A DNA stretch of 64,000 nucleotides from Scleroderma bovista (lineage: Eukaryota > Basidiomycota > Agaricomycetes > Boletales > Sclerodermataceae), in the NCBI GenBank assembly GCA_037178675.1, contig JAYMGJ010000265.1, forward strand, positions 1 through 64,000, given 5' to 3'. The translations under genes were made by a program, and so were the position numbers. The number at the start of each line of letters is the position of its first letter. Position 1 is the first letter of the stretch. Shown one piece after another: positions 10,346-64,000 of this stretch. The notes beneath the pieces were generated by a model. It had not been told where the DNA came from and made no database searches. It worked only from the letters and a program-made list of their open reading frames with translations.

Positions 10346-10398
10346 TGTAGCAATAGTGTCAGTAGTTAGGAATTTACAGAGTTGTACAGAGTTGATGG

Positions 10399-42309: not shown

Positions 42310-42344
42310 TCCACAGCCACTCCAGAGCCAACTTGAACACCATT

Positions 42345-42889: not shown

Positions 42890-43259
42890 TTGTGCTCCGA
42901 CATTAGATAATGCTCTGCACCTGCCTCATGTGGTTTATTATATAACCGCGCCAGATTTATTGTCTTGCAACCCATTTTATTTCATAGTCCGACGTGTGGC
43001 TGACGTTGTTTACAAATGTTTTCTTGCAGCCCCCGCTGGGAGTGTGAGGGGATTAAGGTTATGCTGGGTTTGAATTGTCCACGTGCGATTATATAATCAT
43101 CCATCCACTCAGAATTTCACTAAGTCTCGCGCCCCTCTCACTCCCAGTGGAGGCGTGAAGGAGCCTGGAATTTTGACCATTTCACTTGTTTTTCCAGTGG
43201 GTTCCTTTTCTCCTGGTACTTCCTTTCCTTCTGGCTAGGCAGAGCCAGGGCTCATAACC

Positions 43260-43546
43260 TATAGAAAGGTGGTGGTCTGCACAGGGAAGGTCTAGCCTGT
43301 AGAAGAAGGGAGAAGGAGAAGCTGTAGGGTAACCTCAGTATGCTGGCAAGCTACTGATATATTAGTATATACCTGTAGGGTAACTACAAGGTATCAGTAA
43401 GTATGTGTGGTGGTTAGTAGATGGTACTCACCCTCAGTATGCTGGCAAGCTACTGAGGGAACTATAGTAATAGTAACTCTACTCTAGTGCGATGAAAGCT
43501 TATGTAAGTATATAAACAAACCATAACAGTCTGTTTATCTCCAACA
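43260..43546 (-). repeat. Family-2 5' LTR
   Basis: This 287-bp LTR starts TGTTGGAGATAAACAG on the minus strand at 43546 and ends CTATA at 43260, followed by GGTTATGAGCCC. It differs from the 3' LTR at 35275-35555 at a handful of positions, including small indels near 43300 and 35320. This suggests some age or gene-conversion history. Confidence 0.8.
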
Positions 43547-45944
43547 TACCTTTGGTCTTCTGAGTGACAGGTGGGTTGTCAGCTGCGGTTGTGGAAGCAC
43601 CTGCAGTTGCAATCGGATGTGCTGGATTATTCTTATCTGCAACTGCTTTTTTCTTGTCTGCATATCAAAATTATCCACATACATTTAGTTGTATGTGGGG
43701 GTCCATAAGAACACTCTCACCTGTTGTCTTTACCCGTGGCTTGGGTTTGACACCCACTGCAGTACCCGCGGTCGGAGGATGCTTACGGTCTGCTATTTTT
43801 TGTTCATTTCATCGCCATTGATAATAAATATCCCACCTGTATCTTTCCTTTGCTGCATTGCCTGTTGCTGATGGGACCCAGCATGCATGGAATATGATGC
43901 ATTTGGTGGGCCCACTTTAATATTGTGACCGGCTGAGGAGTCACCATCGGTCTGATCCGAACTGGAATCTGTGAAAATATATCAGTGTATGTTCATACAG
44001 TAATCATACTTACCCTCTGTATCTTTTCTGGCATGCGTCTGTTTCAACCTTTTATTGTGGCTCTTCTCAGCATCCACTGCAAGACATCAACAATATACCA
44101 ATGAATGAATAGATGTAATTACCTTGGAAATTGTGTCGACCGCGGGTGTGCCTTGATTCTGCTCCATCCCTAGAAGGACCCATGGCATTTCCATGCGGAC
44201 GCACAGGGGGCTGAATGTCCTCTATGTCCTCCTCATTATATGATACATCTATCAATGCCTCTCAGTGGTTGCCAATTTAATAGAATGATATTTACCTTGC
44301 ATGGGCTTCATCAGCAAACCCAGGATTTTGCCATAGTGACCATAGTAGTCATATACATTATAGGGACATCATAGCTCAGTCATAGTAAGTATACTAGCTG
44401 TAGTTTCTGTAGTTCTGACAGGCTGGAAACAGGCTGGCAACAGGCTGCTGCCAGTCTCTCAATTTTGCCATTGTGATCATAGTAGATATACTAGTTGTAG
44501 TTTCTCTCTGCCGTACTCTTGTGGTTGGCACTCGAAACCGCGGCTTGTAGCGACCCATTGGACTCTAACCACCTCTTGACCTTGAATGTATTTGCCAGAT
44601 CACTCACTTGCCTGTCACGCCACCACTCCAATATTTCTGTGGCCTCTTTGTTGGTAAGCCTGGAGGGTTCCTTGAATGCGACATTGGCAGGCCAATACCT
44701 GCCCGATATATATGTGCCGCGGTCAAGCACAATTGCTGCCCATGGGACAGCAACATTGGACCGACCACAAGCCTTTCCTGTTATGACATGGTTAGCATTT
44801 GATTCATAGAATATTTTTACATACCATAATGAAAACTAATGAATGTGCGTACTATGTCCTTTTTGTCCTGGGTGTTCATATTCAGGATGACCGGAATGTA
44901 GGGCACGTCATCTGCATCTGTTGGGAGTTTAAACTGCGGTCATCTTTTACCTTTGACAGGCTTTCTTGGAACCGTGCCCTCATCCTCCGTATCTTCACCA
45001 CTTTCCTCCTCCATACCAAATACCTGATGGGCATACTGCTCCCACTTGTTCTCCACCCAGTCCCTGCCATCAAAGAGCTTGCCATCACCCAATTCGTCAT
45101 TGAAGTCATGCCTATGTGTTTCAGTAGTAATATATACACCAAACAACCACACTCACAGGCCATACATGATGTCACCCGCGGCACCTTTCCAAGCCGCCAT
45201 CACCACCACTCTGGCACCACACTGCTTCCACATCGCCTTGGAAAACTCACGGGCAAACTTCTGACCTTTTCCTTCCACAGCTCTACCTGTAGTTTCAGTA
45301 CCATGCTGCCATGGGATAAGAGTCTCACCTTGCTTGGATCTCTGGGGGGGGTGGGTATCATTCCATTCTTTGGCTGTCTTTTCTGCCTGCTCCATGTTCT
45401 CTGCGGTCAGTCTCTTTATCACTTTGCCCACCGCCCTCTGATAATTTTTAATGTACCTGCTGGAACCAGGTGCATGTCCTGCTCTGGCAAGCACATCATC
45501 TATTTTTCCCTTCTCTTGGTCTGCTATTACCATGCGGGCAGTCCACCTGCGGCCATATTTGATGAGCTGTTTTTTTTTCTGAGTGCGAGAGTGATTATAC
45601 AGCCAATTTTGAATGGCCTATGAAAATACGAATTAAGGCAAGCTCTTCATAAGTGAGGGAGCACTCACCTTCTTCTTTATCACCCATTGGTGACTCTTGA
45701 GTGTCCTGTTGGCCTCCAGCCTTTGGACATGGCTTGCAATGTCCTTAAAAATAGACTTCCTTTTCGTTGCGTCCGCTGCCATCCACTGTTCCAGTTTCTC
45801 CTGGACAATGAGGAGCTCATCTTTGCAAAGGGGGGTCTTGCCTTGCCTGGTGGCATCAGACCTCTCACCGCTATCGCTCTCACTGTACTCAGATTTGGAC
45901 ATGGGTGAGGTGGAATCTTTGCAGCGAGTTCCCAATTCTGGCAC
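43547..45944 (-). pseudogene. KDZ2 companion ORF 1, C-terminus cut by Copia insertion
   Basis: It is transcribed away from the KDZ2 transposase, with about 385 bp between starts (a likely shared promoter). The protein begins MPELGTRCKDSTSPMSKSEY. It has KDELLIVQEKLEQWMAADAT, a helical KRLTAENMEQAEKTAKEWND block followed by THPP, FAREFSKAMWKQCGARVVVM and DWVENKWEQYAHQVFG, then STARTs of a further domain (RYWPANVAFKEPSRLTNKEA; WWRDRQVSDLANTF). The tail is basic and Pro-rich (GTAVGVKPKPRVKTTDKKKA). Introns of about 50 nt separate the exons. Related ORFs accompany KDZ-type elements in basidiomycetes as far as I can recall, but I know no function. The frame ends at the family-2 LTR after TQKTKG, and a roughly 200-bp insert sits in one exon. 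Confidence 0.6.
44306..44512. other. Small insertion inside KDZ2 companion ORF 1
   Basis: It interrupts the coding exon between AAVSSANHKS and PMQ. It contains two copies of ATTTTGCCATAGTGACCATA-type sequence (44324 and about 44460, diverged), each followed later by TACTAGCTGTAGTTTCT or TACTAGTTGTAGTTTCT. No clear target duplication is visible. A related string, CATCAGCAAACC, occurs near 6648. Confidence 0.45.
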
Positions 45945-46328
45945 ACATACCGGCCTGTTGATTGAAGTTCACGTGGTCACTTTCTTCACATGTCACAAGG
46001 ACCCTTGATCTTACTTTACCATGTATGGGCAGATGCAATACAGCACCCAAGGAATATTTGGTAAGATTCCATGGGTATTTGCAAAGATCTTACCATAGAT
46101 GGAAAGGTCCATGTTGCTCAGGGTCCACTTTGACAATGCTTATGTGCCAATCTCAAGATCTCAGTCCATAGTTGGTAGGGTTCCATTTGTGCCTGATCGC
46201 AGTCCCGACCGAGTGGATTGACACCGGAGGATCCCAATCCGATGCAGTTGGTCAAGTTCAAGGTATTGCAATGAGGCATTTCAAGGTCAAAAGTGGTCGT
46301 GTTGTGAGCTTTGCATCCAGAGACAGTC

Positions 46329-49300
46329 ATGGGGAAGTCCAAGGTAGTAAAAGTGGGCCCCTCTACACCTGTAATGCAGGTGACTGTCAAGTCCGGGTCT
46401 ACTCCGGTAGGGGGTCCGGTCAAGTCCGGACGAGCGCGGACGAAGGAAGAGGGCAGAGGGCTGGACGAGAGATTAGTCCGGCCGGGGTTGGTGACCGCTT
46501 GGATTCAACGACTAAGGACAACGAGCGTTGATCCCTTGCGTAGGTTCCGGTCAAGAAGGGGAGACGGAGACAGAGACGGAGACGGGCAAGATCAGGAGTA
46601 GAGACTATGGTTGATTTCAGACTGAGGTATACAGGACGGAGTACAGGGTACTTATACTACGGAGAACTAGGGTCGAGTATTTACGGTGACAAGTAAACAG
46701 CCCAAAGGGCGGACAAGGGATAACCGGAGAAAGTACTAGGTCAGGTCCGATGAAAATAAAGTCAGGTCCGGGTAAAATAAATCAGGTCCGGTGAAAATAA
46801 CACAAGGCAGGAGATATAACAAGTACACGGAGAACTCACGACCAAGCAGGGTTGACGGCGAGGTGTGGTAACGAACAAATAGAGCATAGACCAAGGGTCG
46901 TGCTTAACGGAAGGTTATCTGTGTGAGTGCGACCGGAGTAACTGGTGGGCGACCGGAGTTGAGCTGTAGAGCTGCGATGCGACCGGAGTGATCGGATAAG
47001 ACCCGGAGTTGGGCATGGTCGTAACAGTGACATGGAAGACAGTAAGATCTGGTAGACAATCCAAGGACAAGATTGTCAAGGCTCCACCCCGGAAAAAGGC
47101 ACGCATTGAAAGAGCTGATGATCAGTCTCCTACTCGAGCTGGTTCATCGGCATTGGAGCACACCAGTTTCTTTCCAGATGAGCCTGTAGAGGCATATTCT
47201 ATGACAGATGATCCACCCCTGTGAGCATGTAGATTGCCAAGGAACCAGGTCTGATGCACCTTCCACACTCTAAATATATATCTCATCCAATCATAGGACC
47301 ACTATCTGCAAGACTGGCTGCCCTGGAAAGGCAAATATTTGTCAGTGCTCCTGGAAATGGAGGCACCCCCTGCATCCAGGATCTGTATGTGGTGTGGAAA
47401 GGGTGGGGCAATTAGGTGCACTGACTGTGCTCATAGGCCACTCTTCTGCACCAACTGTTGCCTTGATACACACCAGCTCGGTCCCTTCCATCGGATTCAG
47501 AGGTGGACTGGAACCTTCTTTGAGGATTTCTCTCTTTGCCTGGTGGGTCAGTTCTTTCACCATATCCACATGGTAATTAATAAAGCAGATTGGATTTTTG
47601 ATGCACTTGGGCCACGGTGGAAAACCATGTCCTAGCGGAGGATATAGCTGCAGTCATCATGCAAGTGATGATGAAGACGCTTGGGAAGATGTGGAGGACG
47701 ATGGGAGCCCACCTCATCTAGCTAGACCATGGGACAGAAGTTGCCTAACTGTGGTGCACACTAATGGGGTGCACTTTTGCAACATTCGATACTGCAGCTG
47801 CGATGGTTCAGAGGACTCACATCTACAACTTATGATGGCTGGCCTTTTCCCTGTGACAACAAAAAGTCCGAGGACTGCATTTACCTTCCAGGTGCTGGAT
47901 GATTTTATCCGGGACAATGTGGAATGCAGCACCACTGCAATGAACTACTATAGTAAGTTGCAGAGACTGACATCCAATGCATTCCCACATGCAGTGCCGG
48001 TAAGTGAAGTAACCTTTTGTTGACCGCGGCATTGACACCGTGGATGAGATAGAATAGGTACAGGGAGCTTCTGAGATTGTCCAGGGCATGGAGACTTTTG
48101 AAGCTTCTCAAGTGGAAAGGATTCTATGGAATGTTGGAAGAACCAGGGCCAGGGGAACTGGTCCTCTTTTTCCTGGCATGTCCCCAACCCAGGGTCAATA
48201 TGCCACCCATGGGAGAGGTGGATCTCACACAGTGAGTATGGGTTGTAATTATTCCATAATTTACATATATGACTGATCTGGACAGTTGGAAGTATTTGAG
48301 GGTCATTGCCATGGATGGAAATTTCAAAGCCAAACATATGTTGCTCAAACAAGCTCCAAACGAGGTCTGGTTGATGGATGGAAAAGGATTCATGGTAACA
48401 TCGGAGCCTTATAAATCCTATTTAGCAGGAAGTGCAAATAGAGTGGAGGTATGATATCCTTGACACATGCCACGGTAATTTCTGATGCCGCAGTTAGAAA
48501 TCGGACTGTAGCAATCACTGTGTGGTCAATCAGGTGAATACTAGTAGAAGTCAGTTGGCATCAACTGGAATCGGTGGTTGTGCCTGTGCCAGACATGGGT
48601 GCTTTGTTCCTCATGCAATGGTTGATTTCCAAAAGGGAGAGCAGTGTGTCCGCGGCTCCAAAATAAAGAGCTTTATTGACCTGCGGGTAGGCAAGTCAAC
48701 ATGGATTACTCCTTAGTGCATGCAGTGCATCACAGAATGGACCACCAACAGCGGGTGGTAAACTTCTATGACATCAATTGTCAATACAGCAAAAACCTGT
48801 ATCAGCGTATAGAAGGGAACCGGTTTGTGTCTCTCCCACCCGGACTAAAGATTCAACCGGGCATTGGTATATGGCATGTCCATGGACATCAATTGGAATG
48901 TTTTGTCAGGTATTCCCCTAATTTCATTCCAGGAGTAGGCAATGTGGACAGGAAAATAATGGAGACTCTCTGGTCGTCCTTGAATATTATTTCCCCCTCC
49001 ACCCGGGGAATGGCTGCACCTCATCGGCAGGAAATGCTGGACTTCCAAATGAATGAGAGTAATTTCTTGAAGATGGTCCGCATGCGTGAGTGATGCTAAA
49101 TAGGGGATATTGCGACCGCATTCACGCATTCCAGCTCTGTCTTTGAAGAGGAAACTGATTGCTGCACAACAAAACCTGGCATCCTCTCGTGATACCTTTG
49201 CAAATTTAGATGAAACTGTGCCTGAAGACATTTGTAATATTTGGAAGGCCCAAGAGAGGAATGCACTTGTGGAGAGATTAACCAATGCAAAGGCCATGGA

Positions 49301-50460
49301 TATATTCAAAGTCCAGTTGGAAAAGGGTAGGTCCTATGGCAACAAGTACAGAAAAAGGCTGAAATGACACGGAAAGCACTGAGCATTAAATCCATCGAGA
49401 TTAGCCTCATAGGAATGCAATCCGTGGTAGGGGCACTGTGAGGATCTGCCACATGGATGGCAAGGGCCCTGAAGGTGGAGGAGTCTCAGATAGTGCTCTT
49501 ATTGGATGCACACAGGATCGATTCAAGAACTACTGAAGCCAAAGGCTTGACATTTCCTGCCATTGTGACAGGCTACAGTCTCAAATCAATGGCTTGGTGC
49601 AGACCGCGGCAACATTTGTGGGAGCTGACTGGGACAGTGGACTTGATGCCTGCGCACATGGTGACTCAGGGAGTGATGAAGATGGTACCTTCATTACTGT
49701 ATCCCCTGGGAATGCAGAATACGCCATACTGCCACTGCCTTCCTATATAGGTTTGCCGCAGTGTGGTGCATTGGAGCTGAATGGCCTTGTAGAGGAAGAA
49801 CTCCAGCTCAGACAAGGTCAGGCCAATGATGCTTTGCATGAAATATGACTTGCTCTTGCAAACAAGGCAGTTTTATTTCTCACCAAGGTCCGACATGGCA
49901 GAAACTATGCTGTGACAACCCACGCTTGGAAAAAGGTATCGGACCTGGACACATTGGTCAAAAGATATTCCGCAATTTATAATCTGTGCCAAAAGCAAAT
50001 GGTTGCATTGGGAGCCGACCAAAGCATTCTTGACTGGTATCAAATACTGAACAAGAAGGATCTCACAGTGAGTACTGTGGTGTCCGATCCCAATGCAAGG
50101 GGCCATTGCCATGACTCCTTGGCATGGTTCTGGACTATGGACATTCCAAAGGACACAAATAAAAATGATTGGATATCAGAGTGTAAGCTTTGCAATCTTT
50201 GGTCATATATACCTACTTAATGATTCTAAATAGTTTACCGGGTTCATTGGTTATGGGTGAAGGCAAAACAAGATCGATGGACTGAAGAGGTGGACCTCAT
50301 AATTTCAGAACAGGGTTGGACACACAACTTCTTCAGGAACCAGGCAAATTTCTGGGAGGAAAAAGCTGTGAAATTTGGATTGGACTTTGACTGCGGGATG
50401 GCATGCTATGCAGCAAGGCAATATGACATGTACAACAAATTGAGCAAACTCTGTCAATGA
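46329..50460 (+). pseudogene. KDZ-superfamily transposase (CxC2 type), broken by a solo LTR
   Basis: The ATG at 46329 opens MGKSKVVKVGPSTPVMQVT. The frame is interrupted at 46385 by a 642-bp LTR and resumes at 47032 in register after one GTGAC copy. The CxC2 zinc region has CMWCGKGG, RCTDC, FCTNC and PFHRIQRWTG, then CSCDG and AGLFP. The core carries CPQPRVNMP, IAMDGNF (first Asp), VNFYDINCQYSKN (second Asp), GIGIWHVHGHQLECFVRYSP, and VDRKIMETLWSSLN, where the usual Gly-Glu before I-M-E-T-L-W is Arg-Lys here. The C-terminus ends with AARQYDMYNKLSKLCQ. Several introns are clean, for example GTGTGTCCGC...GGGTAG near 48643-48690, which removes apparent stops. The LTR makes the gene non-functional unless it is spliced out; otherwise it is well preserved. 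Confidence 0.85.
46385..47026 (-). mobile_element. Solo LTR, family 1, copy 2, inside KDZ2 exon 1
   Basis: The 642-bp LTR (plus strand TGTCAAGTCC...GTCGTAACA) is flanked by the perfect 5-bp duplication GTGAC at 46380-46384 and 47027-47031. It is the inverted counterpart of 7316-7947. Removing it with one GTGAC copy restores the codons Gln-Val-Thr-Trp-Lys of the transposase. Confidence 0.92.
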
Positions 50461-50539
50461 TTATTTGTGTTAAAATATCACCTGAGGCACAAACAATGCA
50501 TACTAGTTCTACAATTTACATGCAATTATGGAATGCCAT

Positions 50540-51338
50540 TCAATTGTCCTTTCCCCTCCAAAGTTTATCTGTGGACACTGCCCACTTCTCTTCCAGCTCA
50601 TTGGGAGAATCAGTTAGATATTCCACCATGGTCATGCGGTCGACGAGATGATGTAATAGTGTATTTTGATGGAAGATCTTCTCATCGACTTCTTTCAAGA
50701 GATGCTGCATGTGTAATTTGATATCTTCAATCCCCATGCCTGGGGTTTCCCGGACATTGAATAGGGTCGGAATTCCATAATCCCTGGGCTGAAAAGAATG
50801 CTGATTAGAAATTTGTTTGCATAACCCTGTGAACTCACCTGGGTCTGCAGAAAGAATTGCTGTGCCTCTGTGACCAGCTGGTGGAGTGTTGTCCACGGTA
50901 CAACATTGCAGGGGACACCCCATACCCACCATGCCCCAGGTGTGGCCCGTGTACTTTGGACTCTGGCTTCCGCAGGATAAACTTTGAAGACGTCAATGGT
51001 TTTGATCTGGCCCATCAAAGTTGGTGCATCCGGATCCTCAACAGAAACCCATTCCATCACTTGGGCTGCAACCGTGGGAACCTGCATCACCAGCCCGTGC
51101 TTGTTACATGTGCCAAGTAATCGCTCCAGAATTGCCTGCAAGATTGGTCAGCCTATTTGATGTGATGGGTAATCCAGGATTGCACCACTTCTGCCAGTAC
51201 ATGGCTATGCCAATTGATCTTCTCCCATAGTGAATCTTCCCCTGTCTGCTGCAAAGCATGGACAAACCGACGGAATCTGATACCCGCATATTGCAAAGTC
51301 GCGGATAGTGTGCGTGCCTCAATAATGGAGGAATCCAT
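50540..51338 (-). CDS. KDZ2 companion ORF 2
   Basis: This is a three-exon gene convergent with the KDZ2 transposase. It starts MDSSIIEARTLSATLQYAGI. Introns near 51125-51178 (GTGCAATCC...TTGCAG) and near 50790-50838 join AILERLLGTCNKHGLVMQVP and TPGAWWVWGVPCNVVPWTTL to a last exon with RDYGIPTLFNVRETPGMGIE and a helical LVDRMTMVEYLTDSPNELEE. Its stop at 50540 is 80 bp from the transposase stop. I see no known catalytic motif and cannot assign a function. Its position suggests it is part of the KDZ2 element. Confidence 0.55.
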
Positions 51339-51519
51339 GGGTGTAGGATGGTGAATAAAGCTGGATATTATAAAGGTGGATATTTATAATTTATCCACCA
51401 ACATTCCCACGTATGGCCTACCATTGTTTATGAAACAATGACCACCCACCCAGGTGGCATTGTTGAATATCACCAGGTGGTCCCACAGATATATAATTGC
51501 TACATCCCTTTTGTTCCAT

Positions 51520-51763
51520 GTATATTTGATTAGCATATCAGTGGATGATTGGATTTCAATTAGATGTCTATTCTCACCACGGTGAAATACAACCGTGGTT
51601 GCTATATATGTAGTCCGCTATGATAGCCAAATATAAAACACAGAATTTGTCAGGACATTGACACCTTATTGTTCCCTTGTTATCAGCATATCAGTGAATG
51701 ATTGGATTTCAATTAGATGTCTAATCTCACCGCAGTGGAATACAACTGCGGTTGCTATATATG
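51520..51763. repeat. Duplicated ~75-bp unit with compensated hairpin (ACCACGGT / ACCGCAGT arms)
   Basis: ATTGGATTTCAATTAGATGT begins near 51549 and again near 51700 in two similar units. Unit 1 contains ACCACGGT and, a few bases later, ACCGTGGT. Unit 2 contains ACCGCAGT and ACTGCGGT. In each unit the two octamers are exact reverse complements, yet they differ between the units, so base pairing has been kept. The chromovirus inserted at the end of unit 2. Confidence 0.6.
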
Positions 51764-52145
51764 TGAGATGACCCTAGGCAGAACACCTAAGACCCAACTA
51801 CACGCGAGGCTCTGAGGAGAAATAGGACGCGAGGATCTAGAGCAATAACCCAAGATGAGCTCGAATGGGGAGCCTCTGGGTGCTGGATTGCACGGCATAT
51901 ATACTACTATACACGAGGGCTACGCGAGGCTATCCATGAGGCTACGTGCAGGTAGAAGGCTATGTAATGACATCACTGTGGAGCTAAGGCTATGCGTAAT
52001 GATGTCAAGGGTAACAGCGTGTACAGCACGAGGTACAGGTCTAGACTAGGTAGATAAGATAGAGGCTGTACACTAAGATAAGATAAACACTATCTAATCG
52101 CAGATTAGATAAGATAAAAAGTCGGACCGTAACACTACTCCCCCC

Positions 52146-55100
52146 TCAGGTGCAGGATTCCAGACTGCAGAACTGAGCGTCGCAAACCGTGAGGTTTTCG
52201 GGAACACGACTAAATAACGAGTCAAAGTCTGCTTGGGTCATACGAAGTTTCCGAGGGGCAGAGGGGTTTTCTCGGTAAAAGCGCTCAACTACCAGAGGAG
52301 AATTCTTTAAGTTTGATGAGGGTTCCCATGTTCTCTCGTGTTCTTCGTATCCTCTCCAGTGTACTAGATACTGAAGTTGTCTTTTATAAATACGAGAGGC
52401 TACAATATAGTCCACTTCGTACTCCTCATCGCGTTCTTCAGAGACATGTACCGGACCGGGCCGAGACACGGGCTGTCCGGGAAGAGGACCTAAATAAGGT
52501 TTAACTCGAGAAACATTCACAACCGGGTGAATCCGAAGAGTTTTCGGGAGCTTAAGCTCAACCGCATTCGGGGTTACACGAGTGACCTCATAGGGACCAA
52601 TCCACTTCTCCGTAAGCTTCTTAGAAGCACGATTTAGCATACGAAGGTTGTCCGTAGAAAGCCAAACTTGTTGTCCTACAACATAGCCCGGGGCAGGATT
52701 TCTATGCTTATCCGCCTGAAGCTTCATATTTCGTTTTGCCTTCTCAGAAGACTCCATGACTTTATTAAATATGGCGGCAAAGTCCTTAGCCGCTGGGGCT
52801 ACTGTGTCGACCGGCTCAACACCCATACGTGGGGAATAACTCCGGGTAATTCCAAACAGTGAATCAGTGGTTACTTCCGAAACCGTGTTGTTCCAAACGA
52901 ACTGGGCAATCTTGATCCATTTGGCCCATTCGTTCTGTCGATCGTTTACGTAGGTTCGGAGATACTGATTAATTTCACGGTTCAACCGTTCCGTTTGACC
53001 ATCAGTTTGAGGGTGAAATGCCGTAGACATTTTCCTTTTAACGCCTAAAAGTCTATACAACTCCCCCAGGAAGTTGCTCGCAAAGACCGATCCGCGGTCT
53101 GACACGACGGAAGACGGGAGTCCATGCTGACACCAGACATGATCCCTAAATAACTCAGCGGTTGACAAGGCAGTTTCCTCCTTAGTGCAAGGTACAAACA
53201 CGACCTCCTTGGAGAACCGATCAACCACGACTAATATATAATTGTAACCGAGGGATTCCGGCATTTCGGTAAAGTCCACAGTGATGTCAAGCCACGGGCC
53301 GCTAGGGGTAGGGAGAGGAATAAGACTTCCAGAAGTCTTTTGATTCGACACCTTGGACTGTTGGCACTTTTGACAGTGCTTTACGTAGGTTTGAATCTGC
53401 TCTTTCATCCCTCTCCAAGAATAATGCTTCCTGAGCGCGTTATACGTAGCTTTTACTCCTTTATGACCAGCAACCGGAGTATCGTGAAAATTCGTAATGA
53501 GCGACTGTCGCTCTTCGTAAGACTGATCAGTGACGTCGATCAGTTTAATAGATACCGGGTTCAACAGGACCTGGTCCTTGTTATCGTCGGAACTAGACAC
53601 GTAATGGTCCGATCGTCTGCTAAGCGGATCTGCAACGTGCATCTGGGTTCCCTTTTTATAGATAAGTGAATAGTTAAATCGCGTCATCCACATCTGCCAG
53701 CGCGCTTGGCGCTTAGACAAGTTCTGTGACTTGGTGAAGTACGTTAAATTATGATGGTCCGTGTAGATCTCAAAGGCATAAGGAGTGGCCTCGAGATAAT
53801 GGCGCCAGGCCTCAGTTGCTTTTATAATGGCCAGCATCTCTTTATCGTGAATAGGATAATTTCGTTCTGGAGGTGTCATGGAATGTGACATGTACGTGAC
53901 GGGTCTGAATTCGCTGTCTTCGCACTTCACGGATATCACTCCCCCGACGGCGAATTCAGACGCATCGGTTTCGAGGCGGAATTCGCGGTCCTGGTCGGGG
54001 TACTGAAGTACCGGAGCACGAGTAAAGGCGGCTTTCAAAGCTTCAAACGCAGCGCATTCCTTTTCTCCAAAGTTAAATGCCATATCTTTACACGTAAGGT
54101 CCGTCATGGGCCTGGCCATGATCGCATAATTTTTAATGAAACGTCTATAGAAATTGCCGAGACCTAGGAACGCGCGAACCTGCTTTACGTTCGTTGGCTC
54201 AGGCCATTTCAAAATAGCATTAACTTTCTCAGGGTCCATTTTGATACCATCACGTGACACGATCATACCGAGGAAGTCGACTTCGGTGACTCTGAAGCGA
54301 CACTTCTCAGGTTTGACAAACAAATCGTTATCACATAAACGTTTCAAAACTTCCAGCACGATTCTATCATGCTTTTCCTGATCGTCCGTATCCATAAATA
54401 TCATCAGGTCGTCAATATATACCACACAGACATCTGACATATCGTGGAAGATTTCATTCATCATCTTCTGGAATGTCGCGGGTGAATTACAGAGACCGAA
54501 ATACATAACTAATGGCTCGAAAGCCCCTTTGTGCGTTACAAACGCAGCTTTCCACTCATCGCCTTCACGAATCCTCACATTGTTGTAACCCCAACGAAGA
54601 TCCATTTTCGTGAAGAGTTTACAACCCTTAAGCTTGTCAACAAGCTGAGAGATAAGTGGTAGCGGATAGTTATTTTTAATTGTCCAGTCGTTTACATAGC
54701 GGTAATCCTGTACCATGCGCTTCTTGCCGTCCTTTTTCGGGATAAAGAAGACCGGTGACGTCTGCTGACTAATAGAAGGCCGAATGTATCCTTTAGCGAG
54801 TTGATCATCAAGGAACGATTCAACTTCTTTTTGTTCGTCAACAGAGAGCGGGATAAGTCTTCCTTTTTTAGGCGGGAAGTCTTCTTTTAGATCAATTCCA
54901 TGATCCCAAGGTTTTCTTAGCGGCATGCGCTCCGACGACTTTTTACTAAATACGTCTAAGAACTCCCAGTACTCTTTAGGTACCTGCTTCTGAGCTTCTT
55001 CTAGGGTCGACTCATAGATAGTGACCTTCGATTCATGAGCTTTCAAAGCTTGCACCCAAGTTTTCTGAGACTCATTCTCTCGTAATAACTTAGCAAAGCG

Positions 55101-55877
55101 CGTTTCCAAAAGTGACTTGCACTCTGGAGGACACCTAGTTAAATTAACTTTGCCTGTTACCCAATCTATATCGGGGTTGTGCTTCTGAAGCCAGGTGTGG
55201 CCAAGGATAAGCGGCACTTTTCCAAGGCATGTGACAGCACACCACAGCTTTTCGGCATGTTTCCCAATGCCGACTGTCAACAATACATAATGTGTGATAT
55301 CACCCTCCTGATTCCTAGTGCCATCTACGTTAAGCACAGGGACGGGCTTTACCAGCTTAGATAACTGAAGTCGTCGACCAAGAGCCCAGCTCTTGTCAAC
55401 GAAACAACCAGTAGCGCCACTGTCTAGCAGAGCGTCTACTTTAATAGTATTAAGTGGTCCGCGGATGCAGACCGGTACCGTCACTTCACGTTCCATTGTG
55501 AAGGACCTTCGTAAGTCCATGAGAACTTCCAAGTTGCCGGCGGGACTTTCCGGTTCCTTAGATGCCAAAGAGGGAGAAGAAACAGTTTTATTCGACTGGG
55601 AATTAAGCACGCTCGATTTTACTTCCGGCACCGAGCCCTTTGCAGGGACCCCCTTAGAAGGTACAGTACAGTCCGAGTCACAGTCCATAGCATCAACAGA
55701 TAACACAGAGTAGCGAGAAGGAGAGACAGAGACAGGAGAAACTACTGAAGATACTTTTTTATGGGTTTTCGCTATTTTTGTACGTAACAAAGCAATGCGG
55801 TATTTAAATATTTCCTGCACTGCAGGAGTAGTAGCACGAGAAAGTCTATAGTCCAGAATTTGTACAGCTAAGTCCAA
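52146..55877 (-). CDS. pol: Pol polyprotein: protease, reverse transcriptase, RNase H, integrase, chromodomain
   Basis: The frame has about 1243 codons from the first alternative start to the stop, and it is open upstream to the gag stop region. In order: aspartic protease with VDALLDSGATGCFVDKSW (about residues 150-170); reverse transcriptase with YPLPLISQLVDKLKGCKLFT, FGLCNSPATFQ and VVYIDDLMIF; RNase H with RLETDASEFAVGGV and IYTDHHNLTYF; the integrase zinc finger (AGHKGVKATY through HCQKCQQSK) and its DDE core (DITVDFTEMP, VSDRGSVFASNF, QTDGQTERLNREINQYLR); and a C-terminal chromodomain (YEVDYIVASRIYKRQLQYLV plus HWRGYEEHERTWEP). All catalytic motifs are present. The chromodomain marks it as a chromovirus and would direct integration towards particular chromatin. 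There is no ATG near the 5' end, which fits expression by -1 frameshifting from gag. Confidence 0.93.
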   Translation of the reverse strand: MDLAVQILDYRLSRATTPAVQEIFKYRIALLRTKIAKTHKKVSSVVSPVSVSPSRYSVLSVDAMDCDSDCTVPSKGVPAKGSVPEVKSSVLNSQSNKTVSSPSLASKEPESPAGNLEVLMDLRRSFTMEREVTVPVCIRGPLNTIKVDALLDSGATGCFVDKSWALGRRLQLSKLVKPVPVLNVDGTRNQEGDITHYVLLTVGIGKHAEKLWCAVTCLGKVPLILGHTWLQKHNPDIDWVTGKVNLTRCPPECKSLLETRFAKLLRENESQKTWVQALKAHESKVTIYESTLEEAQKQVPKEYWEFLDVFSKKSSERMPLRKPWDHGIDLKEDFPPKKGRLIPLSVDEQKEVESFLDDQLAKGYIRPSISQQTSPVFFIPKKDGKKRMVQDYRYVNDWTIKNNYPLPLISQLVDKLKGCKLFTKMDLRWGYNNVRIREGDEWKAAFVTHKGAFEPLVMYFGLCNSPATFQKMMNEIFHDMSDVCVVYIDDLMIFMDTDDQEKHDRIVLEVLKRLCDNDLFVKPEKCRFRVTEVDFLGMIVSRDGIKMDPEKVNAILKWPEPTNVKQVRAFLGLGNFYRRFIKNYAIMARPMTDLTCKDMAFNFGEKECAAFEALKAAFTRAPVLQYPDQDREFRLETDASEFAVGGVISVKCEDSEFRPVTYMSHSMTPPERNYPIHDKEMLAIIKATEAWRHYLEATPYAFEIYTDHHNLTYFTKSQNLSKRQARWQMWMTRFNYSLIYKKGTQMHVADPLSRRSDHYVSSSDDNKDQVLLNPVSIKLIDVTDQSYEERQSLITNFHDTPVAGHKGVKATYNALRKHYSWRGMKEQIQTYVKHCQKCQQSKVSNQKTSGSLIPLPTPSGPWLDITVDFTEMPESLGYNYILVVVDRFSKEVVFVPCTKEETALSTAELFRDHVWCQHGLPSSVVSDRGSVFASNFLGELYRLLGVKRKMSTAFHPQTDGQTERLNREINQYLRTYVNDRQNEWAKWIKIAQFVWNNTVSEVTTDSLFGITRSYSPRMGVEPVDTVAPAAKDFAAIFNKVMESSEKAKRNMKLQADKHRNPAPGYVVGQQVWLSTDNLRMLNRASKKLTEKWIGPYEVTRVTPNAVELKLPKTLRIHPVVNVSRVKPYLGPLPGQPVSRPGPVHVSEERDEEYEVDYIVASRIYKRQLQYLVHWRGYEEHERTWEPSSNLKNSPLVVERFYRENPSAPRKLRMTQADFDSLFSRVPENLTVCDAQFCSLESCT

Positions 55878-55918
55878 CGAAGACTCGAGAGCGAGGATGC
55901 CCGTTTTATCCTCACTCT

Positions 55919-55931
55919 CTAATCTTTTAAA
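55919..55931 (-). promoter_or_regulatory. Canonical -1 ribosomal frameshift heptamer between gag and pol
   Basis: On the minus strand the gag codons read ...GAT TTA AAA GAT TAG. The heptamer T TTA AAA (plus 55925-55931) is the standard X XXY YYZ slip site. Slipping back one base gives TTT AAA AGA TTA GAG, which is exactly the pol frame and is open from there into the 1243-codon ORF. The gag stop lies one codon after the slip site. I did not evaluate a downstream pseudoknot. Confidence 0.82.
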
Positions 55932-56347
55932 TCTTTGAAGAACGCCTGCATTTCTGCAAACATCATTCCTCTTATTGCATTTAGCCGGTCATCCTCCGGC
56001 TGGGCTTGCGTTGCCCGTGCTTGCGGTTGCCCACGACGAGGGCGGCGCGGCTTTGTGCACTCTCGTGCAATGTGGCCAAATAATTGGCAATTGTAGCATT
56101 GGGGCCCTTTACCCCTTTGCTGACTTGCTTCAATGGCACCTATATCCATTGGGACACCACTCCCAGATGCGGCTGAAGACGAATAAGATTGGCCCTGGTA
56201 ATATCGGGCTGAGCCTTGCCCTTGGAGGTTGATGAGGAAGAGTTCCTGGGCTCTTCCCATCGCGCGAGCAGAGTTTGCGAGTCGTTCGTACGTGTCTCGT
56301 CGCATTCCCTGTATATAAATCTGCTCCAGGAGTTTCCTCTGGAGCGC

Positions 56348-56627
56348 TGAAAAGATAACAATGTGTTTGGGTGGCTGCTCCCTCAGATGAGGTGCATTCG
56401 ACCCAGGGACTTCTGGAGGTCTGGCAAGGCTCCCAAGGACTAAGGAGACTAAGAAACTAGAGAGTGGAAGGGTGGTTCAGTCACTCCAAGACTGAGCTCA
56501 AAGATATACACTGAAGAGAAGGATATTTTTTTTTTAGTAAGCTAAGTACAAGCCTACATAGCTAAGGTAAGAGTCCAGTATCAGTACTACCAATCTACAC
56601 ACCCAGAGACAGGACTGTCTCTACAGC
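56348..56627 (-). mobile_element. Solo LTR, family 4, inside chromovirus gag
   Basis: The 280-bp sequence has TG...CA ends on either strand (plus TGAAAAGATA...GTCTCTACA), flanked by GCGC at 56344-56347 and 56628-56631. It is an inverted copy of 57385-57653. Deleting it joins the Gag codons for ERAL to QRKLLEQIY, the order expected in Gypsy Gag proteins. Confidence 0.82.
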
Positions 56628-57384
56628 GCGCGTTCGAGCAAGTCGCGGGCGTACTCATCTACACAGCCCCCTTGGTTCTTGAGCGCCTCGAACTGCGCTA
56701 AGAAGTCGTCGATTCTCTGCCTCGGGCCCTGCCTAAGGTGGAGTAGTTGGGCACGTGCCCACTCGGCGTTGTTTCCGGGGAGAAAGAACCTCTCTATCTC
56801 CTCCGCGAAGTCATCCCAAGCGGGCCAGGCCGGCGGGGGCGGGGGCTCTCCGGCCAGGACGGGCGGGGCGTTGGCAAGGGCCTGGGCTGCCGCCATGCAG
56901 CCGTCCAGACGGACCTGAGCCCACCGACCAGCTTTCGGGCCAGTGAGCCGGGAGAGAACTGCGGCGGTAACCTGGGCGTCGTTTGCCCCCTCCATCGAGA
57001 TTTGTATCCAGATCTTGATCTTGGACCACCACTCGTGGAACTTCTGAGGGGAGCCATCGTAACTCCCGGGATCTGCGACCACCTTCTTGCGCGATGGCGG
57101 TGCAGGGCGAGGCTGTGCAGCCGTAAGGGCCGCGATATGTGCCTGTAGGGCGATTTGTCCCTGGACAAGCTGTGCGAGGAGTTGGTCAAGGTCTGCCATG
57201 ACGACCTAGTAGGGGTGGAGGCGGGAATAGGGGGTAGGTCTTTGTTTAACCGGTCGGAGACGGGAAGACCGGAACGTGCGGCGGCGAGCGAGCGGGAGGT
57301 CTGGCAGGGGCGGAACAGGAAGGGAACGGTGGAGGCCGAGGAGGACTTGGATTTCGAAGTCGCTGACAAGGCAACTGTAGGCGG

Positions 57385-57653
57385 TGTAGAGACAGTCCTG
57401 TCTCTAGGTGTGTAGATTGGTAGTACTGATACTGGACTCTTACCTTAGCTATGTAGGCTTGTACTTAGCTTACTAAGCAACTTCCCTCTTTCCTCTGTAT
57501 ATGTTTGATCTCAGTCCTGGAGTGACTGAACACCTCTACTCTCCCTACTTCCTCTAGTCTCCCCAGTCCCTGGGAGCTCTGCCAGACCTCCAGAAGCCCC
57601 TGGGTCGAGCATGCCTTACCTGAGGCAGCAGCAACACCCAACCCCCCCCTACA
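57385..57653 (+). mobile_element. Solo LTR, family 4, second copy
   Basis: The 269-bp sequence TGTAGAGACAG...CCCTACA is flanked by GCGG at 57381-57384 and 57654-57657. It is inverted with respect to 56348-56627 and similar over its whole length, with more divergence near the outer end. It separates the 57199 gag start from upstream gag-like sequence. Confidence 0.8.
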
Positions 57654-58654
57654 GCGGCAACGGCGTTGGTAAACTGGAACTCTTCTTCGATCGCCGACTC
57701 CCTTTCCTGTACTTTGACGAGGGTGTCAGGGCGGGGACCGTAAATGACCGCCAAGCGCTCCTGTTGCGCTTCGACGAGGTGACGAGGGAACTGGTAAGGT
57801 ATGGTGACTATCGTAAGGGGTGACGTAGGAGTAAGGTTACTTTGGGACTAGATCCCCACAGTTGTTCCGCTAACTAAGCGTAAGACTTTGTTCGCCTGTC
57901 GCGCTCGCTGGGTCAGGGCAGTGGCACAGCTATGCAAAGAACAAACGGCTAGCGGCTGCAGATCACAAGGTCTACCTCTGCACGGACGCAGGAACTACCG
58001 AGTATGTATGTCTCAATCGCCTTGAGGCTGCGAACCTCTCTTGAACGGGCGCCGACCTTCAGACACCAGGCACGACCCTGGGCTGGTGTACAGTACGTAA
58101 AGGTAACGGTGCTAGAAACTCCCAATGCCGAAGCACTACGGGAACGGCACTAAAGGCTGGCCGTGAACGAAACGGAAAGGTATGAAGGTGAAGCTCCTTA
58201 ACCCTGGAGTCCGGGTATAGTTTCCTTATAAGGCTAGGAGAGCGCGTAGTAGAGCGAGTAAGATGTATAGATTCGAGCTCAGGTGAGATGACCCTAGGCA
58301 GAACACCTAAGACCCAACTACACGCGAGGCTCTGAGGAGAAATAGGACGCGAGGATCTAGAGCAATAACCCAAGATGAGCTCGAATGGGGAGCCTCTGGG
58401 TGCTGGATTGCACGGCATATATACTACTATACACGAGGGCTATGCGAGGCTATCCATGAGGCTACGTGCAGGTAGAAGGCTATGTAATGACATCACTGTG
58501 GAGCTAAGGCTGTGCGTAATGATGTCAAGGGTAACAGCGTGTACAGCACGAGGTACAGGTCTAGACTAGGTAGATAAGATAGAGGCTGTACACTAAGATA
58601 AGATAAACACTATCTAATCGCAGATTAGATAAGATAAAAAGTCGGACCGTAACA

Positions 58655-59082
58655 ATATGTGGAATTGATGTATACTGATGCATCACCATTTTCCGATCTG
58701 TCACCGCAGCTGGGCAACACCCGGTGCAGAAAACCTCTCCCGCTGACTTCATACCAACAGGGTAATTCTGGTAACATGTGAAATTCTATTGATTCGTCGA
58801 ATTTCTCCTTTTGGAGTAATGGGGAGTTTTACCACTCAATGCCCACTGATGTGGGTTCCACCCACGGCTGATCTCCAACTTGATGTGAATGTATTCATGT
58901 TGCCACCGTCCCAACATTGTAAATTCTATTCCTTGTCTTTATTTTTCCTATATAATTTATTTTATTGGTTTGAACTTTGTTGATTATGCATAGCCACCAC
59001 CCCGCCACCACCTATCCGCGGTCTCAATATAAGTATTCCTCAGTATCCCGGCTTTGTTTGGGTCTCATTTCTCTCCCCTTCA
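58655..59082. other. Upstream region of the TET/JBP gene, no gene seen
   Basis: This AT-moderate sequence holds only short ORFs. It is the continuation of the sequence interrupted by the chromovirus at 51763. TATATAATTTATTTTATTGG near 58950 could be part of the TET/JBP promoter, but I have no firm evidence. Confidence 0.4.
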
Positions 59083-60348
59083 TGGCTGCTCCTGTGTCCT
59101 ACCAAACCAACTACCAGCTATCTCATCAAGTTTCTGCTTATATGCGATGCCGCTTCTGTTCCTTGGCTTTCCCCAACTCGGGGACCACGACACCTCAAAT
59201 TTCCCTTAACCTCCCAGTCGACCTTTCAGTTGGGATGCACCAGATGGTAGCCACTTTGGTTACCACGTATAATTATCGCAGTATGCCTCCTTCATGCCCC
59301 TTTCCTCCAGTACTCATCTTTGTCCAGTTGACTCTGGTGTTGACCTCATCCGGCTTGCTGAATCATTGGCATCCATGGAGCCTGGGACCACCGCGGATAG
59401 GGAGCAAACCTTCCTTAACAAGTTCCCTGCTACTATTTCAGGTCTTATTGATGAACCAGCGGTGATTTTGGGGGAGGGGGGAACTGTAGCTTTGTGGTAT
59501 CTCCCTGGTGCCTTGGCACGGCCAACACAGGTATGATTTAATACCTCTTCTGTTCATAATCTTCTATAATTCCTGTAGACAAATATAAATATTCTGCAGG
59601 CATTAGGTCCACTCCATACACAACTGTCCACCAGTATCACTGGCCAGACATGGCGCAATGACCCATGGTACTTTCATCCGGAACAGACCCGTGTGACTGG
59701 TTGTTTGGAGCTTTCTCCTGCAAGACATCAAATGGGTCATTACGTGTGTGCTTACCATTCCTGCCATGAATTAATTGATAATATCATATTCAGCATGAGA
59801 ATGCTTCCATTTCCGTGGACCTCAATACAGCCACAGGTTTCCAGTGGTTGCAAGATATGGTGCAGCCGACCTCCATTATATCGGGTGCATTATCAATCAT
59901 GCATCCACAGCTGTATGAGGATGGTATGCGAGGAATTAGTTTATTGGAAGATTGGTCTTCCGCAAATGACCTCGGCATGAACCGGGCCTTATCCCTCTGG
60001 CCCACCACATTTACCAATATTTCAGTTATTGCGAACCGGTGCACCCCCCTCCACCGTGATCCCCAATCCCGTGCCAGTTGGTATGATATTATAGTAAATG
60101 TGGGTGAATACACTGACTGTATCATGGCCATCCCTACCCTTGGCATCGAGCTGGTGTACAAACCCGGTACCGCAGTCGCATTCTCCGGGAGGCTTCTTAG
60201 GCACGGGGTAAATGCTGTAGAAGGAAACCAGTACTGTTTGACCTACTATATGAGGGATAACATTCACCATTGGGCAAATGTTCCAAGGTGTGCAGATTGG
60301 ATGAGGATTGATAGTGTGGAGAGGTTGCTGAGGCCTACCATACTGTAA
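59083..60348 (+). CDS. TET/JBP-family 2-oxoglutarate/Fe(II) dioxygenase (DNA base hydroxylase)
   Basis: TET/JBP enzymes oxidise 5-methylcytosine (or thymine) in DNA. The C-terminal exon carries the double-stranded beta-helix signature: CTPLHRDPQSRASWYD (Fe-binding His-x-Asp), IIVNVGEYTDCIMAIPTLGI, the strand VYKPGTAVAFSGRLLRHGVN (second Fe-binding His), and CLTYYMRDNIHHW with a conserved Arg. Earlier exons have GLIDEPAVILGEGGTVALWY followed by LPGAL, the G-x-x-x-W-Y-L-P motif typical of the family, then WRNDPWYF and LELSPARHQMGHY. Introns near 59531-59599 and 59741-59788 have good sites. The start is uncertain: 59083 (MAAPVSYQTNYQL, with a Cys-x2-Cys) is plausible but needs a join I could not verify; 59294 is the fallback. 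Apart from that, the frame looks intact. It lies about 1.3 kb from KDZ2 companion ORF 2 once the chromovirus is removed. Confidence 0.82.
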
Positions 60349-60829
60349 AGTGCAGAGGAGTTTATAGAACAGATGTATTTCACTATTGACATCTCTTCCT
60401 AACTGAATTAATAAATACATATGGAGTGGAATTTTAGAAATGATAATGCTTATCATGTTGCCGCGGCTGCGTGGTCGCTTATTATGTTTCTGGACATGTC
60501 TAACCTAATTGATATTTTGGTGATCCATATTTCTCCATATCATTATTCGCCTGCCACTGAACACAGGCCCTATAAACTCCCATGGGCTTTCGGAGGGAAA
60601 TCATTATTGTCTTGATTGTGCTTCAGGCTCATTTTTCCGGTATCCTACTTTGTATTTACTGTAACACCGCGGCTTCTGTCAGCTGCATTCTCCTGCCGCG
60701 GCCATCTTTGGCTCACCTTATACCCATGTACCAGACTCCGTAAGCCCATCCATCACTCTCGGCCAGTTATATATGGGCCAATCCACATTAGAGGGAAACA
60801 CCATATGTCAGCCTAACCATGTTAATGGG

Positions 60830-61770
60830 GCTAGATATTATAGGCCTTGCTTTGATTTACATTCCAGTGGTATTTTGGCTCACCCGTATTCCAGGTCACA
60901 ACTGATTCATAGCCCACCCTTGACTCACGGGATGATGCAATTTTACATGGGCTCACCCATATTCCATTGGACAGATCAAATCTTAGCCCACCCATGCTAC
61001 TCAGTATGATGAAACATGGGCTCACCTATACCCTAGTGACTGTTCTACCTGGGCTGACCCATATCACATGGAACCATGTAATAATAGCCCATCCATATCA
61101 CATCAGAACATCATAATGTAAGCTCACTCATGCTACACGACCTTAATGTATATGGGCCCCCCACAGTTCAGGGGACATTGTTATTTTGGCTGACATACAT
61201 GATAAGGGACAGGTTATTCAAAGCCCACCCGTGCTACACGGGATGGTGGCATCATATATGGGCTCACCCATATCACATTGGAACCATCCACTCTCAGCCC
61301 ACTCTTGCTACTCGTGATGATGGAATATGGGCTCCTCTATACCTTAGGGACTTTGTTCTCACTCATACTACACAGGACTATGTAATAGCAGCCTGCCCAT
61401 GTCAGATGTGATGATATAATAGGGGCCCATCCATATCCCATGACAACATCCATGTGTCAGCCCACTCATGCTACTCGGGATAATGGAATATGGGCTCACC
61501 TATACCTTAGGTGAATGTGATTTCGGCTCACTCATATTACATGGGACCATGTAATAGCAGCCTGCCTACATAACATGGGATGGTATAATAGGGGCCCATT
61601 CACATCCTATTGGCATATCAAAGTTTCGGCCCACTCGTGCTACTTGGGATGATGGAATATGGGCTCACTGCTACCTTTGGGGAAGGTTATTTCGGCTCAC
61701 TTGTATCACATGGGATCATGTGGTAGCAGCCTGTCAATGTGACATGTCTGTCAGCCCACTCGTGCTACAT
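60830..61770. repeat. Minisatellite with GGGCTCACCCATAT / AGCCCACCCATGCTAC units
   Basis: Irregular units of about 60-75 bp alternate ATATGGGCTCACCCATA-type and AGCCCACTCATGCTAC-type halves, with ACATGGGA motifs. The organisation into two related halves recalls the 70-bp dimeric array at 33085-34030, although the sequences differ. ORFs in it are artefacts. Confidence 0.75.
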
Positions 61771-61959
61771 CTAGCTGTTGCGCACTGGATAGTTATAACA
61801 ACCCACAGTGTGAACTTTACCTGTGGTCAAAAACCAAGGTTCCACTCTAACCAATACCAATGTCAGAGAAAATATTCCCTGTCAACTACTGTGCATAAAT
61901 GCTGAGTAGGTTTTCCATCTCTGGTGTTGATAGTACACTCTCCCCTTAATGTTAAGGGC

Positions 61960-63260
61960 AGAGTTTAGTCCACTGGTTATAAAAGATTGTCCCTGGATGA
62001 TGCATGGTGGTAACCCTTACCATCACTCTGCGGTGGGTACTCACTCCACTGTAGTCAAACTGTGCTGTATAATCAACTGCAGTGGATAGCTAACCTGTGG
62101 TATCATATGCAGTGGGTGGTCAACCCTGGGTAGGTAGTGGTTGCAACTGGGACCAAGGTTGATGACCAACCCTGCAGTGGGTACTCATTCCACTGGGTAG
62201 TCAACCTGTGCTGTGTAGTCAACAGCAGTGGCTAGCTAATCCTGGGTAGGTAGCTAACCCACCGTATGTGTGAACCCACGGTATCACCTACAGTGAGCAA
62301 AGCCACAATGGATGGTCACCCCTCAGTAGATAGTTGTTTGTAGTGTAACCGTGGTTACTATTCAAACTGCGGTTGAGAGTCACTCCACAAGGTAATCAAC
62401 CCCTGATATGTATTCAACAGCAGTGGGTAGATAACCTGTGTTGGGTAGCTACCCCGTGGTATGTATTGAACCCGCAGTGTAACATGCAGCAGGTGGCCAA
62501 CCTGCAGTGGGTACTCCACTGTGTACTCTATCTGTGCTGTACTGTCAACAGCAGTAGCTGGCTAATCTGTATCGAACCCGCGGTTTCATTTGGAGTGGGT
62601 AGTCAACCCACAATGGTTGGTCACCCCTCAGTACTAGAGAGTCACACCACTTGGTAGTTAACCCCCGCTGTGTAGTAAACAGTGGGTGGATAACCCGCGT
62701 TGGGTACATAACCCACGGTATGTATTGAATCCACAGTGTAACTTGCAGCAGGTGGCCACCCCGAGGTGGGTACTCCACTGTGTAGTTGACCAGTGCTGTA
62801 CAGTAGCTAGCTAATCCATGGTGGGCAGCTAACCCACGGTAAGTATTGAACCCGCAGTTTCTGCAGTGGGAGTCAACCCACAATGGGCAGTCACCCCTGG
62901 GTTGGTAGTGCGACCGCAGTGTAGTCAACCCGCGGTGGAGAGTTACTCCACTGGGTAGTTAACCCCCGCTGTGTAGTCAACAGTAGTGGGTGGATAACCC
63001 TTGTTGGGCAGCTAACACACAGTGTGACATGCAGTGGATGGTCAACCCTGGGTAGTTACATGGTTGGAAATAGTTCCTGGCTGACCTAACCTGCATGGGT
63101 AGTTAACCCATGGTTAGTAGTGGGCCCGTAGTGGGACTGTGGTTTGTAGTAATCCCATGGTGTGTGATGCCTGTGTATGTATAGTCAGCTGTAGCAGTCC
63201 ATCAATGGTAAGTAGTCAACCCGCAGTAGTCAACCCCAGTAGTTCACCCGCGGTAATGAA
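61960..63260. repeat. Degenerate minisatellite of AACCCGCGGTGG-type units
   Basis: Short units of about 20-40 bp of the form GTAGTCAACCCGCAGTGG repeat, with many variants of one palindromic core: CCGCGG, CCGCAG, CTGCGG, CCACGG, CTGCAG. Most variants differ by C-to-T or G-to-A at the CpG positions. No gene is visible. 63261-63523 is similar but sparser and holds nothing else. Confidence 0.75.
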
Positions 63261-63523
63261 GCCAGTTCTGCTGGTAGGTTGATTAGATTAGTTCCTACTG
63301 TATGCAGTAGTATCTATTTTTGCTAGCCCACCCCATACCTTTGCATTCCAGTAAATATGGGCTCATCCATTAATGTGCACCCAGTAAGATTGTGGCCCAC
63401 CAACATGACATGATGACAATTCCTATATCCCTACCATAACCCCTCCTTGACTACTACCATAGCCCACCCATATCACATGGTAACAAAATCATAGTGTGTA
63501 GCCCACCTGTATTACTCGGTGAT

Positions 63524-64000
63524 TGTTACGACCATGTCCAACTCCGGATCATATCCGGTTACTCCGGTCACATCGCAGGCCTACAGCTCAACTCCGGTCG
63601 TTCTCAGTTACTCCAGTCAACGGTCGCGCAGATAACCTTCCGCTAACTACGACCCTTGGTCTATACTCCATTCGCTCTTACTACACCTCGCCGTCTACCC
63701 TGCCTTGACGTGAGTTCTCCGTGAACTCGATATATCCTATACCTTGTAGCATTTTCACCGGACCTGATTTATTTTACACGGACCTGACTTTATTTTCACC
63801 GGACCTGACCTAGTCCTAACTCCGGTCATCCCTTGTCCGCTATTAGGTTGTTTACTTGTCACCGTATATACTCAACCCTAGTTCTTACTTAGTATAAGTA
63901 CTCTGTAAGTTTATCCTGTACTCCTCAGTCTGAAATCAACTTAGTCACTACTCCAGTCTCTGTCTGTCTCTGTCTCTGTCTCTGTCTCTATCACCTTGAC
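63524..64000 (+). mobile_element. Family-1 LTR, copy 3, cut off by window end
   Basis: The sequence from TGTTACGACCATGTCC onwards matches 7316-7947 over the available 477 bp, with scattered differences and a shorter internal array. Because the window ends, it cannot be told whether it is a solo LTR or the 5' LTR of a complete element. GTGAT (63519-63523) would be the left target duplication. Confidence 0.85.

Follow-up and report, generated by a model that had tools for sequence, protein, structure and literature searches.

Sequence comparison places a TET/JBP dioxygenase gene within a large KDZ-superfamily transposon of Scleroderma bovista

Introduction

Does a TET/JBP dioxygenase gene found beside a KDZ transposase gene in the mushroom Scleroderma bovista belong to the transposon or is it merely a neighbor, and, if it belongs, what might it do there? 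We address this question in a stretch of 64,000 nucleotides (GenBank assembly GCA_037178675.1, contig JAYMGJ010000265.1; C265:1-64000 in our numbering, hereinafter the window) from an assembly of 51.8 Mb in 850 contigs. An earlier note on this DNA had proposed that the dioxygenase is cargo that edits the methylation of the element. Comparison with other copies in the same genome confirmed that the gene lies inside the KDZ element and not just alongside it. As a whole explanation, we consider it likely that TET belongs to a large KDZ-superfamily transposon as one of its internal genes, most likely oxidizing 5-methylcytosine of the element and thereby loosening its silencing.

Expansions of TET/JBP genes in fungi were reportedly tied to KDZ transposases by Iyer et al. 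in 2014 (in PNAS). According to a later account, at the time of that study the placement of TET within complete transposon ends was not known; the same account reports complete TET-bearing transposons in fungi, with 7-bp duplications and including Kyakuja elements in Boletales, and states that Boletales hold TET-bearing Kyakuja only (Kojima 2025, PMC12730594). Escape from silencing is proposed there for these transposons, as a function not experimentally validated (PMC12730594).

Results and discussion

The gene codes for an AG-type TET/JBP dioxygenase

The gene lies at 59082..60348 on the plus strand, and we modeled it with four exons, a start codon at 59082, introns at 59267-59310, 59531-59599, and 59744-59793, and an end at 60348, giving an intact, stop-free protein of 367 aa; the splice sites are our reading, guided by reading frames common to other copies. 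Its last exon matched the Pfam profile Tet_JBP (67.5 bits against a cut-off of 34.9; E 1.1e-18), which bears out the earlier assignment of the 59083-60348 gene to TET/JBP, with the start moved to 59082. A search of solved structures recovered CcTET of Coprinopsis cinerea as the best and sole match (PDB 7vpn and 8jkk, E 3e-22 and 3.5e-22), in an alignment spanning the catalytic half (152 residues of the last exon); the CcTET chains are of 430 or 415 aa, against 367 aa in our model. The HxD motif, the downstream histidine, and the arginine were present in all 30 TET copies examined. With CcTET numbering assigned via motif spacing from PMC12730594, 29 of the 30 have aspartate at position 337 and all have serine at 331, the residues of AG-type TETs (Asp at 337; Gly or Ser at 331). 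Protein relatives in Scleroderma and Pisolithus share 35-54% identity with it, and the closest relatives overall 84% and 56%. In a Pisolithus marmoratus protein (P0018), a DUF6532 domain (PF20149) is fused to a TET domain that has HxG in place of HxD.

The element ends lie beyond the dioxygenase gene

The ends of the element were located with the copy C145 as query. Its right edge is sharp, with 28 of 29 other matching copies stopping at 709-714 and one at 722; so is the left, where 13 match rows begin at query 984-985. At both edges there is an inverted repeat, imperfect at 75.6% over 180 columns, and in the orientation of the window the ends read GACCCCATG...CATTATGTG. A 35-base core of these ends occurs 46 times forward and 40 times in reverse in the genome (control: 0), and neighboring cores face inward within 30 kb of each other in 20 pairs, 11 of which enclose TET, KDZ, and the gene that we call companion 2 (C2): C145, C178, C20, C202, C21, C210, C227, C258, C380, C488, and C86.

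Eleven pairs were read at base level, and six have a target duplication of 7 bp placed precisely at the ends, perfect in C202, C380, C21, C488, and C816 and with 6 of 7 bases in C227; at 24 shifted positions taken as a control, none of the eleven reached 6 of 7. Nine of the pairs enclosing all three genes were among those read (C210 and C20 were left out), and five of these nine are duplicated (C202, C380, C21, C488, and C227). The best full copy, C202, measures 19,441 bp between its ends, has the perfect duplication CTATCTG, and holds all six genes that recur in the element. C816, at 3,050 bp, has no listed TET, KDZ, or companion 2 match and nonetheless a perfect duplication; short derivatives thus moved too. 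An 8-bp duplication, as in Zisupton or Dileera, was not found, the eighth base matching only by way of the first base of the element.

In loci arranged like the window, the first end core beyond TET was found within 12 kb in 18 of 42 (median 3,134.5 bp). A second arrangement, in which the companion 2-TET pair is inverted, also ends beyond that pair: two copies stop at one place, with a related end, whose core occurs 45 times forward and 42 times in reverse (control: 0) and, in 29 of 38 loci, lies beyond companion 2 at a median distance of 2,060 bp. The left end of this second arrangement was not located. The end-core survey sorts loci by its own rule, and its 38 loci include C212, which is filed apart in the three-gene count given below. 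Common termini are accordingly present in other copies, beyond TET and with target duplications; copies ending before the dioxygenase, which the earlier note had named as grounds for abandoning its proposal, were not seen. A further end pair, C201:24657-44652 (20.0 kb), holds the genes L1 and L2 and no TET, KDZ, or companion 2 among the matches listed; it is possibly a TET-free copy or a limit of those matches.

Six recurring genes in several arrangements

The genome match lists for TET and KDZ hold the best 150 scored candidates each, and all counts derived from them apply among the matches listed; protein pieces of TET, KDZ, companion 2, and companion 1 (C1) each have about 150 such matches. 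Merging neighboring rows gave at least 145 TET and at least 142 KDZ loci. A KDZ match lies within 6 kb of 89 of the 145 TET loci, where a Poisson formula gives a chance expectation of about 3.5%, and within 10 kb of 96; companion 2 lies within 3 kb of 108 (143 of 147 companion 2 rows used, excluding four second fragments of its loci). To the left of companion 1 the element has another two genes, L1 and L2, pieces of which matched no Pfam family above cut-off when scanned. With a single fragment of companion 1, of L1, and of L2 chosen by hand at each locus, two or more of the other five genes are in place at 113 of the 142 KDZ loci, and the full set is present at 45. Among the latter, the complete order is L2- L1+ C1- KDZ+ C2- TET+ at 18 loci and L2+ L1+ C1- KDZ+ TET- C2+ at 21, the six remaining loci showing six different orders. 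The three-gene orders of KDZ, companion 2, and TET divide the 145 TET loci into classes of 40, 38, and 13 (the last being KDZ+ C2- TET-), with two loci in other orders and 52 unclassed, including that of the window, because an inserted chromovirus widens its spacing. For 78 hand-picked loci with both identities, the divergence of TET from the window copy increases with that of KDZ (Spearman 0.91).

Judged from these alignments, a full copy measures about 19.4 kb, has terminal inverted repeats that are imperfect and span about 180 bp, makes a 7-bp duplication, and holds six recurring genes (L2, L1, C1, KDZ, C2, and TET); the companion 2-TET pair changes orientation from one lineage to another. 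A bolder picture, which we rate as less likely than not, is a six-gene vehicle for escape from silencing, made of movable blocks: a fixed L1-C1-KDZ core and outer modules, L2 and the divergent companion 2-TET pair, that invert, with companion 2 as a partner of TET, for example a DNA-targeting subunit. The constant pairing with TET points to companion 2 as an unstudied partner protein.

Selection on the enzyme and CpG decay of the element

TET is under purifying selection. In an analysis excluding loci L041 and L054, the ratio of nonsynonymous to synonymous substitution rates (dN/dS) of its last exon stays under 1 in each of the 401 pairs whose dS exceeds 0.03, with medians of 0.345 (dS 0-0.1), 0.289 (0.1-0.2), and 0.292 (0.2-0.3), falling to 0.088 at dS of at least 0.9, where dS is saturated. 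The other genes gave 0.256 for KDZ (23 pairs), 0.305 for companion 1 (18 pairs), and 0.495 for companion 2 (10 pairs). By hand count, 113 of the 150 TET rows listed in the genome are stop-free and 37 have an internal stop, the stops being 35 TGA, 5 TAG, and 2 TAA. A stop occurs in five of the 30 exons examined, in four of them as a TGA where 23 of the other copies have CGA.

Of the 61 variable columns across the ten closest TET exons, 55 are transitions, and 44 of the 61 lie in a CpG-type context that covers 129 of 562 sites. The observed/expected CpG ratio is 0.27-0.45 in the element parts of the window and 0.64 in the C145 element; in the window chromovirus it is 0.97 in the interior and 0.68 in the long terminal repeat (LTR), and in a solo LTR 1.11. 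This decay of the copies at CpG sites makes methylation of the element probable. Matches to the C5-methyltransferase family were found on three contigs, one of them with stops.

The proposed mechanism and its alternatives

In the mechanism that we favor, the KDZ transposase would cut and join at the element ends, and TET, produced from the element, most likely oxidizes 5-methylcytosine on element DNA; this oxidation would loosen methylation-based silencing, such that the transposase can be expressed. Both enzymes could work in trans, because short copies without TET and KDZ carry the duplication. The cargo half of the earlier proposal is upheld by the end pairs that enclose TET, KDZ, and companion 2 and by their duplications; that TET edits the methylation of the element or lifts its silencing is what we infer, plausibly, from the CpG decay and the C5-methyltransferase matches.

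Several observations weigh against this reading. Eight of the 20 end pairs are without any listed TET, KDZ, or companion 2 row and one has KDZ only (C59); five of the eleven pairs read lack a duplication (C145, C178, C258, C86, and C572); and in 24 of the 42 loci arranged like the window no end core was found beyond TET, these being mostly divergent subfamilies plus the window copy. The dN/dS of close TET copies, only 0.29-0.35, amounts to moderate constraint. CpG decay happened despite the presence of TET in the copies, and the CpG ratio is just as low (0.43) at positions 1-7000 of the window and in the flank to the left of C145, so that the depletion is not specific to the element.

Among the alternatives, it is most improbable that TET is a host gene family merely clustering with KDZ elements in repeat-rich regions: 49 of the 145 TET loci are without a listed KDZ match within 10 kb, but order and spacing are fixed, the ends beyond TET are shared, and the duplications flanking whole TET-containing blocks already contradict such an origin. 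TET might instead be a passenger: acquired in a single capture, it would have been propagated by the copy number of the element while conferring no advantage on it. The movement of C816, with a perfect duplication and no TET, KDZ, or companion 2 match, indicates that TET is unneeded in cis, and the internal stops in about a quarter of the listed rows fit a dispensable gene; against this stand the purifying selection across deep lineages (the saturated class with median 0.088), the catalytic residues kept in every one of the 30 copies, and the retention of TET beside companion 2 in three arrangements, and we regard a mere passenger as unlikely. A somewhat better case, still a doubtful one in our estimate, can be made for a TET that is internal to the element and leaves a lasting oxidized mark (5-hydroxymethylcytosine or oxidized N6-methyladenine), tagging element DNA or serving transposition. 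CcTET, the nearest solved relative, is reported to oxidize both 5-methylcytosine and N6-methyladenine, and oxidized methylcytosine to accumulate at transposons in C. cinerea and L. bicolor (PMC12730594, PMC8889193). The CpG decay, moreover, shows that copies were not kept free of methylation damage by TET, although it may postdate their silencing. Whether a transposon-borne TET shields its carriers from silencing, as the favored mechanism would have it, can be tested copy by copy in this genome, which offers at least 145 TET loci, exact ends, duplications, enzyme-free short derivatives, and a record of CpG decay in one DNA.

Relationship to known TET-bearing transposons

The element probably belongs to the Kyakuja lineage of the KDZ superfamily. 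As described for TET-bearing Kyakuja of Agaricomycetes (PMC12730594), it combines a KDZ transposase, an AG-type TET (HxD...H triad, with Asp at the position of CcTET 337 and Ser or Gly at that of 331), 7-bp duplications, and a mushroom host. Unlike the two Laccaria Kyakuja families described there, which have 5'-CA..TG-3' termini and no terminal inverted repeats, it has one CA and one GA end, hence 5'-GA..TG-3' in the orientation of the window, and inverted repeats that are imperfect (75.6%) and some 180 bp long; its termini are thus not of the Laccaria type, whereas its 7-bp duplication is that of Kyakuja. The source gives CA..TG without inverted repeats for those two families and not as a definition of Kyakuja (PMC12730594). 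KDZ elements of Marasmius oreades also have terminal inverted repeats (PMC8290104), a likeness by description only. In the passages of PMC12730594 consulted, we found neither companion genes nor inverted gene arrangements reported for Kyakuja. Our literature search found no other paper on complete TET-bearing KDZ elements, and the family itself may have been reported before. The element is of a kind already known, TET-bearing KDZ transposons and probably Kyakuja, with the inverted repeats and flipping modules as possible variations.

The copy in the window

The window copy is a relic, with its left part missing, its transposase and companion 1 broken, three retroelement insertions, and TET still open. 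The order given earlier, companion 1 (minus), KDZ (plus), companion 2 (minus), TET (plus), and a minisatellite, held; its boundaries proved too narrow, as full copies reach about 8 kb further left and hold two more genes.

Companion 1 (43547..46384, minus strand) abuts another repeat with its 3' end at 43546/43547 and has an in-frame TGA near 44.94 kb; its part at 44502-46384 matches C145 at 90.6% in DNA. The genome has at least 150 companion 1 rows, and homologs occur in Pisolithus, Scleroderma, Hydnomerulius, and Suillus; its predicted structure is poor (mean predicted local distance difference test score 50.3, predicted template modeling score 0.29). Position 43547 was rejected as an element end, since another repeat joins there and relatives run about 8 kb further left. 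Searches of the genome recovered no L1, L2, or left end for the window copy, the left-side search matching the companion 1 region only. The segment joining the truncated element there (35351-43546) is flanked by 205-bp direct repeats of 99% identity and holds a 266-bp perfect inverted repeat and a DDE_Tnp_4 fragment (40607-40954, minus strand; 2.8e-7).

Between companion 1 and the KDZ start lies a solo LTR (46385..47026, minus strand) with a 5-bp duplication, GTGAC; it is missing from the corresponding place in C145 and occurs within the TET region of C210. The KDZ transposase gene (47032..50459, plus strand) was delimited by Pfam matches and comparison with C145, its CxC2 (2.4e-26) and KDZ (9.1e-29) domains falling on separate exons; a frame change near 49.53 kb breaks it, as does a TGA near 49.85 kb at a codon for Arg in C145. 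Companion 2 (50540..51338, minus strand, starting at 51338) has at least 147 matches in its own genome and six short homologs without Pfam domains; it matched no Pfam family above cut-off, and a PI-PLC-Y identity for its exon was disregarded (20.6 bits against a cut-off of 28.8).

The chromovirus, a gypsy LTR retrotransposon (51764..58654, minus strand), separates companion 2 from TET; it has LTRs at 51764-52134 and 58284-58654, a 5-bp duplication (ATATG), and Pfam reverse transcriptase, RNase H, integrase, and chromodomain matches. Its arithmetic removal leaves 848 bp start-to-start between companion 2 and TET, in place of the 1.3 kb or so stated before. The subterminal region of the right arm (60349..63523) contains tandem repeats at 61294-61733 and 62083-63058 and matches C145 and C210 up to 63523. 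At 63524..64000 (plus strand) an LTR of another retroelement joins where, by C145, the last 98 bp of the right end would follow; these 98 bp were not found in C265:64001-65000 or 68000-69367. The inverted pair 46702-46871 / 63678-63847 was rejected as element ends, both being LTRs of one retroelement family.

Other features of the window

A second, different KDZ transposase lies at 29021-30142 on the minus strand (KDZ 1.4e-24; CxC1 3.2e-6) and is probably the KDZ1 of the earlier note; near it, at 26677-27270, is a weak Ulp1-protease-like frame (E 0.0028, below cut-off). Identical or near-identical direct repeats stand about 17.8 kb apart (1-300 / 17816-18115 and 847-1371 / 18662-19186), and an open frame in them recurs in the left flank of C145. 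Finally, 8126-10364 holds two facing arrays of 11-12-bp units that are mutual reverse complements (ACTACACTTTT / AAAGTGTAGTA).

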